Assembly: GCA_025356095.1 (NCBI GenBank)
Contig: JANXUR010000098.1
Span: 1-32,744 of the forward strand
Source of the DNA: Acidobacteriaceae bacterium
GTDB taxonomy: Bacteria > Acidobacteriota > Terriglobia > Terriglobales > Acidobacteriaceae
Length of the DNA stretch: 32,744 bases
Direction: 5' to 3'
A program made the position numbers and the translations under genes. The notes beneath the pieces were generated by a model. That model made no database searches. It was not told where the DNA came from and was given only the letters and a program-made list of their open reading frames with translations. Shown here in pieces: positions 3,656 through 30,147 of this stretch (position 1 is its first letter; every line of letters begins with the position of its first letter).

Positions 3656-4165
3656 CTATTTCGCGTCCAAGTCCACTTCGTGCACGGGAACATCGCTGTG
3701 CGAGAGCAGAATCTCGAAGCGGCGCTGCTCTTCTTTCTTAAACGTGGCCTGATCCGGATAAAGTTCCTTGGTGATGGCGGCGCTGGCAGAGTCGTCGCCG
3801 AAGGCGGCCAAATTCTTGAAGGTGATGGTGACGCGGTAGTCCCATCGAGCGTCCTCAGAGGCATGCAGACGCGGAGCTTCCACCTTCACGCTGAGGATGC
3901 GGCCTGAAGCAATCTGCTTGCGGAGAATCGGCAAGTGGTTCTTCTTGAAGAGTTTGAGGAACTCGTCGGCGTGTCCCCACTGGGTTTTGTAGTAGTACTC
4001 AACCACGTAGGGCTTGTCATTGGGCGAGGAAGAAGACTGCGCCGACTGCGCCGACTGTGCCGATTGCGCCTGGGCGCGGGGCATTGCGGGCAAGACAGCC
4101 AAAACGACGGCAACGGCCAGCACAGCTGCGAATACGATGAGAGCGAGACGAAGGCGACGGGACAT
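3656..4165 (-). CDS. Small exported protein of unknown function with SAQ repeats
   Basis: The product is 169 residues. It begins MSRRLRLAL, followed by a hydrophobic stretch and an Ala-rich region ending around AQAQ, which looks like a signal peptide or N-terminal anchor. Next comes a low-complexity SAQ repeat and then about 115 residues rich in aromatic and charged residues (VEYYYKTQWG, a run of Lys/Phe, EEQRRFEIL). The order of strand and helix is reminiscent of small dimeric alpha/beta-barrel proteins, but no motif proves it. The start at 4165 is fixed by AAGGAG nine bases upstream; the open frame continues to 4276 but that part would precede the signal peptide. It lies 92 bp downstream of the acetyltransferase gene on the same strand and may be cotranscribed with it. 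No catalytic residues can be proposed. Confidence 0.7.
   Translation of the reverse strand: MSRRLRLALIVFAAVLAVAVVLAVLPAMPRAQAQSAQSAQSAQSSSSPNDKPYVVEYYYKTQWGHADEFLKLFKKNHLPILRKQIASGRILSVKVEAPRLHASEDARWDYRVTITFKNLAAFGDDSASAAITKELYPDQATFKKEEQRRFEILLSHSDVPVHEVDLDAK
4035..4070. repeat. Four 9-bp tandem units (coding, SAQ repeat)
   Basis: Four units of the form GACTGCGCC (third and fourth with one or two changes) lie head to tail. On the minus strand they encode SAQ three-residue repeats right after the signal peptide of the exported protein. Length changes here would stay in frame. Confidence 0.8.
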
Positions 4166-15046: not shown

Positions 15047-16039
15047 CTACTCGCCCGTTGGGCCTTCGCGCAGTCGTTGGGCGGCGGTCTCTGGACTGAT
15101 GGGCGAGTAATACACTTCTTTGAAGGTGTATGACTTTACTTTGTTGCCCAGAATCGGAGTGATCTCGATGTGCCAGTGATAGTCCTCGTCAATGGTGCGC
15201 CAGTAGCCGAGCGTTTCCGACGAGCGCGGATTGGGCGAGGTGTGCACGACCAGATGAAAAGCGTCGGCGACCGAAAGGATGCGATTCAGGGTGCGACGCA
15301 GCAGCGCTGCCAGGTCGCGCAACTGAGGCATCCGGGTGAGTGCTGCCTGCTCGAAGCTGGCATGATGGATGCGGGAAATCAGCCAAGTTTCGTAAGGTAC
15401 GCGCGGGGCATAGGGGCTGAGTGCCAAAAAATCGCCACGCTCTTCGATGATGCGGGAGCGCTGCTTTTCTTCTTGCGCAATGATGTCACAAAAGACGCAA
15501 CGCTCTTTGGTCTTGAAGTATTCGCGTCCGGAGCGCAACTCATACAGAACGCGGCGGGGCACGAATGAGGAAGCAACCAGCGACGAGTGAGGGTGGGCAA
15601 ACTCTTGCCCTGCTTGCTCGCCGAAGTTCTTGAAGACGCAGACGTAGCGGTAGCGAGGGTCGCCCTTGAGATCTTGAATGCGATGCGCCGCGAGCAGCAG
15701 AAATTGCACAATCTCGGCATCGGACCTCTGCCACAGCTGACGGTCGTGGCCGGGGCCTTCCACCAAAATCTCGTGAGCCCCAATCGAGCGCATGCGGTCA
15801 TAGATGCCATCGCCGCGGCGGTCGGGCTCGCCTTCCGCGTGGTAAACGGGCGCGGGATGCGCGACTGCGCGGGACGACCAAGGGCCGCCATCCACGGCAG
15901 GCATGCTGGAAAGCACAGCAGGCTCCATCGGCGCGTCGCCACAAAAGCGGCAGAAGGGTTCGCGGCTGGGGTTCCATTCGGGCGCATCGTCACCGGTGAC
16001 GACCCAGGAGCGGGTGATGGGATCTTTACGAAGTTCCAT
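15047..16039 (-). CDS. galT: Galactose-1-phosphate uridylyltransferase-like protein (HIT superfamily)
   Basis: The 330-residue product has the GalT architecture: ELRKDPITRSWVV at the N-terminus, a CxxC zinc-type pair (C30, C33), FKNFGEQAG before the active-site HPH, a second CxxC (C181, C184), and the C-terminal YHWHIEITP strand. The nucleophilic His lies in HPHSS (residues 149-153). Canonical GalT has HPHxQ, so the Gln is a Ser here; nucleotide transfer may be altered or the substrate may differ from galactose 1-phosphate. The start at 16039 is fixed by homology of the first residues; the open frame to 16345 runs through a stop-free 12-bp repeat and is not coding. It is divergent from mutS. 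No other Leloir pathway gene is adjacent, although a GHMP sugar kinase lies at 30143-31162. Confidence 0.85.
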   Translation of the reverse strand: MELRKDPITRSWVVTGDDAPEWNPSREPFCRFCGDAPMEPAVLSSMPAVDGGPWSSRAVAHPAPVYHAEGEPDRRGDGIYDRMRSIGAHEILVEGPGHDRQLWQRSDAEIVQFLLLAAHRIQDLKGDPRYRYVCVFKNFGEQAGQEFAHPHSSLVASSFVPRRVLYELRSGREYFKTKERCVFCDIIAQEEKQRSRIIEERGDFLALSPYAPRVPYETWLISRIHHASFEQAALTRMPQLRDLAALLRRTLNRILSVADAFHLVVHTSPNPRSSETLGYWRTIDEDYHWHIEITPILGNKVKSYTFKEVYYSPISPETAAQRLREGPTGE

Positions 16040-16099
16040 AGATATAGCAGACAACATTGGGCGGGCAGCGTCAACCCCGGCAGGGGCAGGATGCGTGTT

Positions 16100-16108
16100 T
16101 GCTATACT
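16100..16108 (+). promoter_or_regulatory. Possible extended -10 promoter of mutS
   Basis: TG-C-TATACT (16100-16108) is an extended -10 element. Transcription from about 16115 would give a leader of about 210 bases that contains the whole 12-bp repeat array before the mutS ATG. No clear -35 is present, as is usual for extended -10 promoters. Confidence 0.4.
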
Positions 16109-16151
16109 CCGCGATATTCTTGATTGTTCTTTTCCACGGCGCTGGAGCAGG

Positions 16152-16319
16152 ACTGAACCACAGAACGAAGCACAGAACGAATCACGAAACGAATCACGAA
16201 ACGAACCGGCAAACGCAGCCGCACATGCAGCGGCAAACGAACCACCAAACGAACCACCAAACGAAGCACAAAACGAACCACCAAACGAAGCACAAACCGA
16301 ACTCCAAAGAAGCGCACGA
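16152..16319. repeat. 14-unit 12-bp tandem repeat in the galT-mutS intergenic region
   Basis: Fourteen head-to-tail units of 12 bp, consensus near AACGAACCACCA, fill 168 bp without gaps. Exact or near-exact copies are units at 16176 and 16188 (AACGAATCACGA), 16236, 16248 and 16272 (AACGAACCACCA), and 16260 and 16284 (AACGAAGCACAA); the outer units and two central ones (16212, 16224) are diverged. The array ends eight bases before the mutS ATG and leaves no room for a Shine-Dalgarno. All six frames of the consensus are free of stops, which explains the spurious long open frames on both strands. Confidence 0.95.
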
Positions 16320-16326
16320 TTCAACC

Positions 16327-19005
16327 ATGACGGAAGCCTCCACACCCCTGATGCGGCAATACGCCGCGATTAAGAAAGAACATCCGCAGGCGCTGCTGTT
16401 CTTCCGGCTAGGGGATTTCTACGAACTTTTTTTTGAAGATGCCAAGACGGCTGCGCGTGAGCTGCAAATTACGCTGACCTCACGCAACAAAGAAAAGGGT
16501 GAGCCGATCCCTATGTGCGGGGTGCCTTACCACGCAGCCGAAGGCTATTTGGCTAAGCTGATTCGCAAGGGCTACAAAGTGGCCATTTGCGAGCAGATGG
16601 AAGCGCCAACTCCGGGCAAGAAGCTGGTGCGGCGCGATGTGACCCGCGTGGTAACGCCGGGGACGGCAGCAGACGCGAGCCTAAGCGCCGATGAGAACAA
16701 CTTTCTGGCAGCAGTGGCGGAAGTGGACGAGGTGTTTGGGCTAGCCGTGCTGGATGTTTCCACCGGCGAGTTTCGCGCGGCGGAGTTTGGCGGTGCGGAC
16801 GCTGGTCGCAGGCTGCGGGATGAGCTGGAGCAGTTTCGTCCGCGCGAGGTTTTGTATGGTAGTGCTGCGCCTTGGCAGGAGCGCAGTGCAGCGCGGGCGT
16901 TGCCTCTTGGCGAACCAGACAGACGCGAGAGTGGTACAGGCGCAAAGCCACAGGCGGCGGGCTCGCTTTGGGCGGAGACACCGCTGGAAGATTGGGTCTT
17001 TACCGCAGCTCACGCGGTGCCGTTGCTGGAAGGCCACTTTGGGGTGCTGTCGCTGGAAGGCTTTGGATTGGCAGCGCATCCGGCAGCAACCGCAGCTGCA
17101 GGCGCAATTCTGCACTACGTGCGGGCGACGCAGCGCGGTTCGTTGGAGCACGTGGATCGCATCGCTTACTACGAGCGGCAGCAGTTTCTGATGTTAGACG
17201 CGGTGACGGTGCGCAACCTTGAGCTGGTTGAGCCGCTGTTTGCCGATGCGGGACGCGATGTGACGCTATTTCGCGCATTGGATGCGACAACCACGCCGAT
17301 GGGCAAGCGGATGTTGCGCTCGTGGATTCTGCGTCCGGCAATTGAGTTGGCAGAGATCGAGCTGCGGCTGGAGGCGGTGGATGCAGGGGCACGCGACACC
17401 ATAAAGCGCGAAGAGTTGCGGCGCGCCTTCGAAGGCATTTTTGACTTAGAGCGGCTGCTGAGCCGGGTGACGCTGGAGGCGGCAACCCCGCGCGACTTGC
17501 TGGCCCTGGCCAATTCGCTCGACCGGGTACCGGGCGTAAGGACCGCTATGGAGCGGCTAGGAGCTGAGCGGATCACAACCCTGAGGACGCAGATAAGTGA
17601 GTTGGGCGAGCTGCGCGCGACCATTCGAGAAACGCTGGTGGAGGAGCCTCCAATTTTCATGAATGACGGCGGAGCGATTCGCCGAGGTGTGGATGGCGAA
17701 CTCGACGAGCTGCGCGACATCAGCCAAAACAGCAAGCAGATATTGGCTCAGGTGGAAGAGCGCGAGCGTCAGCGCACCGGCATCACTTCGCTCAAGGTGC
17801 GGTTCAACTCGGTGTTTGGCTATTACATTGAAATTTCTAATGCGAACAAAGCCCTGGTTCCTGCGGACTACGATCGCAAGCAGACGCTGGTGAATGCCGA
17901 ACGATTTACCACGGCGGAGCTGAAGGAGTATGAGTACAAGATACTTTCGGCGCAAGAGAAGATCGTTGCGATTGAGAAGCGGCTGTTCACCGAGTTGCGC
18001 GCCGCCGTTGTCGCAGAAGCCAAGGCGATTCGCCACACCGCACAGGCACTCGCGGAAGTGGATATTCTGGTGAGTTTCGCGCACTTGGCTGCAACTCGCG
18101 GCTACTGCCGCCCGAGCTTTACAGACGACGGCGCAGTCGAGGTAAGCGAGGGGCGGCATCCGGTGATTGAGCAGCAGGAAGCACTGGCTGCGGGCGAACG
18201 GTTTGTTCCTAACGATTTGTATTTGAACCAGACCACGCACAACGTGCTGCTGTTGACCGGGCCCAACATGGGCGGCAAGTCCACTTACCTGCGGCAGATT
18301 GCGCTGATCGCCATCATGGCACAAATGGGCTCATTTGTGCCCGCAACAAGCGCGCGGCTGAGTTTGCTCGACCGCATCTACACGCGGATAGGCGCGAGTG
18401 ACAATCTGGCGCGCGGGCGTTCCACCTTCATGGTGGAAATGACGGAAACAGCGGCGATCTTGAACACGGCGACGCCGCGGTCGTTAATTCTGTTGGATGA
18501 AGTGGGTCGCGGAACCTCCACCTACGATGGGCTGGCGATTGCGTGGGCCGCAGTGGAGTATTTGCACGGACGGGTGCGCGCCAAGACGCTGTTTGCCACG
18601 CACTATTTTGAGTTGACTCAATTGGCGGAGCAGTTAAGCGGCGTGAAGAACTATCATGTGACGGTCAAGGAAGCAGGCGGAAGCGTCGTCTTTCTGCGGA
18701 AGGTGGCACCGGGAGCAGCCGATCGCAGCTATGGTATTGAAGTTGCAAAACTGGCGGGATTGCCGGGCGAAGTGGTGGGACGGGCTCGCGAAGTTTTGGC
18801 TGAGCATGAAAGCGCAGAGCGCGGCGCTGCCGGACACTTGGCAAAGGAGTTTGGCGCGGTGGCGGAGCGGCCAGCAAAAGTGCAGCTCACAATGTTTACG
18901 CCATTGAGTGAACAGATTGTGGAGCGGCTACGCACGGCAGACCTGAACCGGCTGACGCCGCTGGAAGCAATGAACCTGCTGGCAGAGCTAAAGCAACAAC
19001 TGTAG
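16327..19005 (+). CDS. mutS: DNA mismatch repair protein MutS
   Basis: The 892-residue product recognises base mismatches and small loops and starts methyl-independent or strand-discriminated repair with MutL. The mismatch-binding Phe-x-Glu lies in [11 protein letters not shown] near residues 30-40. The connector, lever and clamp domains follow, and the ATPase has Walker [11 protein letters not shown] (about 644-653), the ST-rich loop [10 protein letters not shown] and Walker [13 protein letters not shown] (about 719-730). The C-terminal helix-turn-helix region ends in LLAELKQQL. The start at ATG 16327 matches the usual MutS N-terminus. In-frame upstream starts (ATG 16225, TTG 16120) would add a basic TNHQ/KHKT tetrapeptide repeat. 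It is followed after 24 bp by nagZ, so the two are probably cotranscribed. Confidence 0.96.
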
Positions 19006-30095: not shown

Positions 30096-30147
30096 CATTT
30101 GGGGGGCACTTGGGGGTTTCACTTGGGGTTTCATTTGGGGTTTCATT
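30096..30147. repeat. G-rich 12-bp tandem repeat at the 3' end of the GHMP kinase gene
   Basis: Four units of 11-13 bp, consensus CAYTTGGGGTTT, plus a partial fifth (CATT) lie head to tail. On the plus strand there are four G tracts of 6, 5, 4 and 4 with spacers of 5, 8 and 8 bases, which allows an intramolecular quadruplex. The kinase stop codon (30143-30145) lies at the right end of the array. Confidence 0.85.

Follow-up and report, generated by a model that had tools for sequence, protein, structure and literature searches.

When a tandem repeat fills the leader of a mismatch repair gene, is it a switch of that gene or the local trace of a process that acts on the whole genome? We addressed this question for mutS of an Acidobacteriaceae bacterium, using a stretch of 32,744 nucleotides (hereafter the window) that forms one contig of a 3.53-Mb genome assembled in 120 contigs. 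A sequence-only reading of the window had proposed that a 12-bp repeat regulates mutS, with the repeats of Salmonella mutL as a parallel and with a conceivable feedback between repeat length and repair. We consider another explanation probable, at roughly 0.77: the array is a minisatellite born in place in the mutS leader through a genome-wide duplication process that is largely indifferent to sequence.

The array and the mutS leader

The mutS gene occupies positions 16327 to 19005 of the forward strand and encodes an 892-residue protein with all five MutS Pfam domains, whose best named matches come from metagenome-assembled Acidobacteriaceae and Candidatus Angelobacter (67–70% identity). A galT-like gene lies divergently on the reverse strand at 15050–16039 (ATG at 16037–16039, a start set by eye from the relatives' stretches); its matches to the Pfam families GalP_UDP_tr_C and GalP_UDP_transf are barely over the cut-offs. 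Judged by eye, the same divergent pair is also present in several relatives.

Upstream of mutS, TRF called a tandem array at 16155–16302 with a period of 12 bp, 12.3 copies and 75% matches, and a second call on the same array, at 16155–16313, had a period of 24 bp and a score of 143. In exact register, the array runs from 16151 to 16306 on the forward strand and consists of 13 head-to-tail units that match the consensus AAACGAACCACC at 6 to 12 of 12 letters. Fourteen contiguous units had been described before; the array stands, and the count comes down to 13, with the candidate 14th unit (16307–16318) matching at only 5 of 12 letters. Self-identity over 16151–16306 was 0.78 at lag 12, 0.72 at lag 24, and 0.66 at lag 36, and ranged from 0.22 to 0.40 at the remaining lags from 3 to 36. 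The repetition is above chance: when the interval was resampled 2000 times under a first-order Markov model, identity reached at most 0.53 at any lag from 8 to 24. With 71 A, 52 C, 28 G, and 5 T in 156 nt, the array is A/C rich.

The units beginning at 16235, 16247, and 16271 are identical, those at 16259 and 16283 are identical to each other, and the 24-mer at 16247–16270 recurs at 16271–16294. These two 24-bp blocks (16247–16294, forward strand) are probably the youngest duplication. Recent copying, which identical units had already suggested to the earlier reader, is a fair reading of this pattern, and many of the units are diverged. At 159 bp, it exceeds in length all the other arrays among the 81 that we found in the sampled parts of the genome, with the caveat that the window was chosen for it.

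An extended -10-like element, TGCTATACT, is present at 16100–16108 on the forward strand, where a possible promoter had been suspected, and relatives share this promoter-like site, with TATAATCCGC-type sites 7–51 nt before mutS. A scan of 15980–16400 found neither a sigma-70 promoter with both hexamers nor a terminator. The distance from the -10 to the start is 218 nt in the window versus 7–51 nt, with a median of 21, in 23 relatives, as measured from the nearest hexamer; in L007, L017, L021, L022, L024, and L027, the start used differs from the ATG found at the shared position. These 23 relatives remained from a set of 38 loci that also included the window, six loci without the searched protein motif, seven with the motif and without a -10-like hexamer, and L020, whose sole hexamer lies 193 nt off. 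The array thus does sit between the -10 and the mutS start, as had been claimed, and it accounts for most of the excess distance: without its 156–159 nt, the leader of the window would measure 59–62 nt, slightly above the relatives' range. We saw no Shine-Dalgarno sequence by eye before ATG 16327, in agreement with the earlier description. Given the short -10-to-start distances of the relatives, a short mutS leader that lacks a Shine-Dalgarno sequence is probably the ancestral state, and its absence in the window would then not be due to the array.

None of the 39 relatives' upstream regions carries the mutS-leader array, which therefore lacks a counterpart at the same place, as a minisatellite of local birth would. 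This comparison drew on 28 of 30 mutS loci from one search and 12 of 80 from a second. Within 300 nt upstream of mutS, arrays with a TRF score of at least 50 were found at two of these 40 loci, namely the window and G038, a genome of the same order. Downstream of mutS, our control, arrays were likewise found at two of the 40 loci, which indicates that mutS leaders are not singled out. The upstream array of G038 (L025:1409–1506) has a 15-bp unit, ACCACCGCAATCGAA, runs over the mutS start codon, and is unrelated to that of the window; the same genome carries an additional 14-bp array just downstream of mutS.

Tandem arrays across the genome and its relatives

The sample of the window genome comprised the window and 20 further stretches, 363,265 bp in all; six of the stretches, from contigs C55 and C93, had been picked after earlier pattern-search hits. 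It holds 81 arrays (TRF score of at least 50), against four in the same sequence after Markov resampling. This amounts to about one array per 4–5 kb, and several family members have almost none. Extrapolated from this sample, taken as typical, the total for the genome would be roughly 800. Leaving out the window, C55, and C93, we counted 47 arrays in 210,521 bp (22.3 per 100 kb), including 32 whose units measure 10–16 bp; 20 relatives yielded 97 arrays in 1,964,764 bp, 54 of them in that size class. The rate of 10–16-bp arrays is thus 5.5 times that of the relatives (binomial p 7e-12, with arrays taken as independent), and a looser exclusion of L130, L131, and the window only (49 in 290,521 bp) gave a ratio of 6.1 for this class. 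The relatives' densities derive from 20 of 60 relative genomes, each sampled at 80–100 kb; for 16 of the 20, one long contig supplied the whole sample.

Among the relatives, the density of 10–16-bp arrays spans 0 to 10.1 per 100 kb, the richest being G010 (L232–L236, 10.1) and G006 (L152–L156, 9.0). The overall array density of G010 (17 in 89 kb) is nearly that of the window genome, and the excess is therefore not unique. Neither G010 nor G006 groups with the window genome on the MutS tree, on which the array-rich genomes (the window genome, G010, G006, G029, and G038) are scattered, with 8 of 28 inner branches left open.

The size of the units depends on where the arrays lie. Gene calling followed a plain longest-ORF rule, which makes tests of position rough, and the p values here, too, take arrays as independent; strict gaps gave 29 intergenic arrays and a looser rule 36. 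The units of the 29 intergenic arrays peak at 13 bp and are multiples of three in 8, compared with 40 of the other 52 arrays, which lie in or mostly in called ORFs (Fisher p 2e-5). The intergenic peak together with the multiples of three in ORFs points to a process that makes units of about 11–15 bp and to a sieve, through selection for the reading frame, of the arrays in coding DNA. The concentration at particular genes or start regions that marks phase-variable loci was not seen: a start codon is no more than 20 nt away for 10 of the 29 intergenic arrays versus 7.7 expected, no clear enrichment, and divergent gaps showed no excess (7 arrays in 7.9 kb, versus 18 in 15.0 kb of co-directional and 4 in 4.5 kb of convergent gaps). 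Placement is not wholly random, and stop codons are somewhat overrepresented at the same distance, with 9 of the 29 arrays versus 5.0 expected (95th percentile 8). A/C-versus-G/T skew and purine skew are slightly stronger in the arrays than in their flanks, and GC content is lower (p about 0.01 each, uncorrected).

Further arrays illustrate these positions. A second 12-bp array in the window, of the same class with about three units, overlaps the stop codon of a GHMP-kinase gene (30107–30147), and a 9-bp array of four units, GACTGCGCC, lies within an ORF at 4035–4070 and encodes an AQS-type repeat. In the RecJ frame, an in-frame 12-bp array (L246:3020–3084, at about 59020–59084 of contig C61) follows directly after the TDHH motif and encodes the peptide DHPADHAADHPADDAPDDAPDAPD. 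RecJ, a nuclease, probably contributes to the stability of tandem repeats.

The arrays are mostly unrelated to one another. When all 81 were compared with one another, 5 of the 3,240 pairs proved similar at an E value of 0.01. Two of the five include the mutS array, paired with a C55 array (81% over 43 bp) and with a 12-bp match in L146, so that some sequence preference in array formation is possible. When 17 other 12-bp units were compared with the mutS unit, one matched at 9 of 12 letters and the rest at 8 or fewer, the mean of shuffled units being 6.3. A pattern search of the genome hit C55, window position 30107, and one lone C93 site, and nothing else; a reversed control pattern gave one match per strand. 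On these comparisons we rejected a single dispersed repeat family, with the C55 array as a possible exception. That array, which resembles the mutS array, has the 12-bp unit ATTTCGCGGTTC and extends over 140 bp between a TATAAT and the following ATG; immediately upstream of the TATAAT lies a 14-bp array, GTGCCCACAGCGAT, of 6.4 copies (L130:5186–5465, about 120186–120465 of C55). The closest pair in the sample, L131:302–349 and a stretch near 9765 of L136, is 97% identical over 35 bp on different contigs.

Two candidate causes in the repair machinery were also considered. Loss of MutL, RecJ, XseA, or PolA as a simple cause was rejected, as all four profiles match stop-free open frames, that of RecJ with an array insert; this search covered the four proteins named. 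An unusual decay of MutS was rejected as well: its best full-length identity to relatives is 73%, close to those of NadE (71%) and HemC (72%), two proteins named by reading of ORFs. A MutS fragment in G035 is 83% identical to the window MutS, and the branch of the window genome in the MutS tree is long (0.6 versus a median end branch of 0.26).

Alternative readings of the mutS array

The array could be a contingency device, in which unit number would set leader length and, through it, MutS output, so that one population would hold both mutator and non-mutator cells. Its location between promoter-like site and start codon would suit such a device, the identical units and the 24-bp duplication indicate recent change, and there is a precedent in the repeats upstream of fpg1 in Mycobacterium tuberculosis, whose length tracks the mRNA level, longer repeats accompanying higher mRNA (PMC2734929). 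Like the mutS array, the fpg1 VNTR precedes a DNA-repair gene and occupies the space between that gene and its neighbor, but isolates differ in its length, and the mRNA level goes along with it (PMC2734929). For the mutS array, a search of the genus returned the window genome alone. We nevertheless judge the device, and with it the regulatory switch of the sequence-only reading, unlikely, since such arrays occur genome-wide without a clear concentration at starts and any array was present in just two of the 40 mutS upstream regions, the window included. Many units are also diverged, and divergence among units slows slippage.

Neither the proposed feedback nor the parallel with mutL is supported. 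A feedback loop is unlikely, because MutS reportedly has no effect on units longer than about 5 bp (PMC3477136). In the E. coli tolA work described there, contraction of 15-bp repeats was RecA-dependent, raised in uvrD, and not significantly altered in mutS; VNTRs with units over 5 bp are cited as likewise unaffected by mutS loss, and this independence is attributed to repair acting on bulges of 1–4 nt (PMC3477136). The tolA repeats share with the mutS array a unit of more than 10 bp and, unlike it, are coding and confined to a single locus (PMC3477136). Salmonella mutL resembles our case in that a mismatch repair gene is again affected by a tandem repeat, but that repeat is coding: its three 6-bp units fall at the lid of the ATP pocket of MutL, and a change in their number yields a defective protein (PMC2955026). 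The mutS array, by contrast, consists of 13 diverged 12-bp units and precedes the conserved start at ATG 16327, rather than lying inside conserved coding sequence.

A translated array appears quite improbable. The mutS frame does include both ATG 16225 and TTG 16120, as had been stated, and a near-leaderless start at the latter (16120–16122, forward strand), 11 nt after the -10, would extend MutS by a tail of 69 residues in which TNHQ and KHK repeats abound; the frame is open, all 13 units are in register, and the spacing is near the 15–20 nt of L017, L021, and L022. Against such an N-terminal tail, which we do not favor, an ATG stands at the place of ATG 16327 in the MutS alignments of 22 of 39 relatives, with a GTG in three more, and MutS domain I begins at residue 6 counted from this ATG. 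The tail would moreover start with UUG, whereas leaderless translation prefers AUG. An open frame through the array comes cheaply, as the unit is free of stops in every forward frame, and the differences among units alter residues (N becomes K; Q becomes K, E, or R), with no constraint visible at the protein level. In L017, L021, and L022 themselves, MutS begins 15–20 nt after the -10 with an N-terminal extension of low complexity, a hint that mutS messages of that group may be near-leaderless.

That the array serves as a binding platform for a regulator or RNA-binding protein, such as a host factor preferring A/C-rich single strands, seems very improbable to us. Its composition would suit such a factor, and the leader RNA shows no more structure than shuffled versions of it (fold z +0.91, with 163 of 200 shuffles at least as stable), but the promoter-like site is retained in relatives without the array, and the leader-positioned array of C55 reads as T/G-rich on the strand of the ATG that follows it. 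Tandem repeats are a known cause of assembly errors (PMC6868369), and the exact unit number of the mutS array could be wrong in this 120-contig assembly; an artefact as such has a negligible probability, given that the units are diverged, that nearly all arrays differ from one another, and that 40 of the 52 arrays not in clear gaps keep the reading frame.

Origin of the array and its meaning for the genome

The reading that we prefer, a minisatellite of local birth, would run as follows. The array would have begun in the mutS 5′ leader and grown as one or two 12-bp units at a time were duplicated, through a process that duplicates stretches of about 11–15 bp largely independently of their sequence, which would make it one of probably several hundred arrays. 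Selection would then purge arrays that disrupt reading frames, and the mutS leader, with no frame to break, would have left room for growth. We infer both this mechanism of duplication and the transcription of the array, which would add about 160 nt of A/C-rich RNA, unstructured beyond shuffles, between promoter and start codon. Its effect on MutS would be nearly neutral or at most a modest change; a modest effect of leader length on mutS expression is possible.

Prokaryotic genomes rich in unrelated satellites are already known, and the window genome is a further case, in Acidobacteriota. It shares with Methanobrevibacter ruminantium and Methanosarcina the many tandem arrays scattered over one genome, and it differs from these cases in its phylum and in its short units of narrow size range, about 11–15 bp (PMC6749651). 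In M. ruminantium, the arrays are described as mutually unrelated and at least half of them as non-coding (PMC6749651); the word Acidobacteria is absent from the main text of that paper. A further report, PMC12699852, treats repeat units of one to nine bp. Among the publications that we surveyed, mostly by titles and abstract openings, we found no report of this array or of a comparable burst in Acidobacteria.

More tentatively, the arrays may stem from a lineage-specific mutational process with a built-in ruler of about 11–15 nt, seeding hundreds of mostly unrelated minisatellites; we regard this as possible, if doubtful. Mis-processed primers or flaps about 11–15 nt long would be candidates for the ruler. 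If such a process exists, it has struck both the mutS leader and the RecJ frame and so may have altered the very repair functions that restrain it. With or without such a ruler, on the reading that we prefer the apparent switch of a repair gene becomes a sign of a genome-wide process. The peak in unit size and the sharp contrast with many relatives are the part that specialists would pursue. With this peak and its clean frame filter, the genome offers a natural test case for the birth of minisatellites in bacteria, and it carries a caution: repeats elsewhere in the same genome should be counted before regulation is inferred from one.
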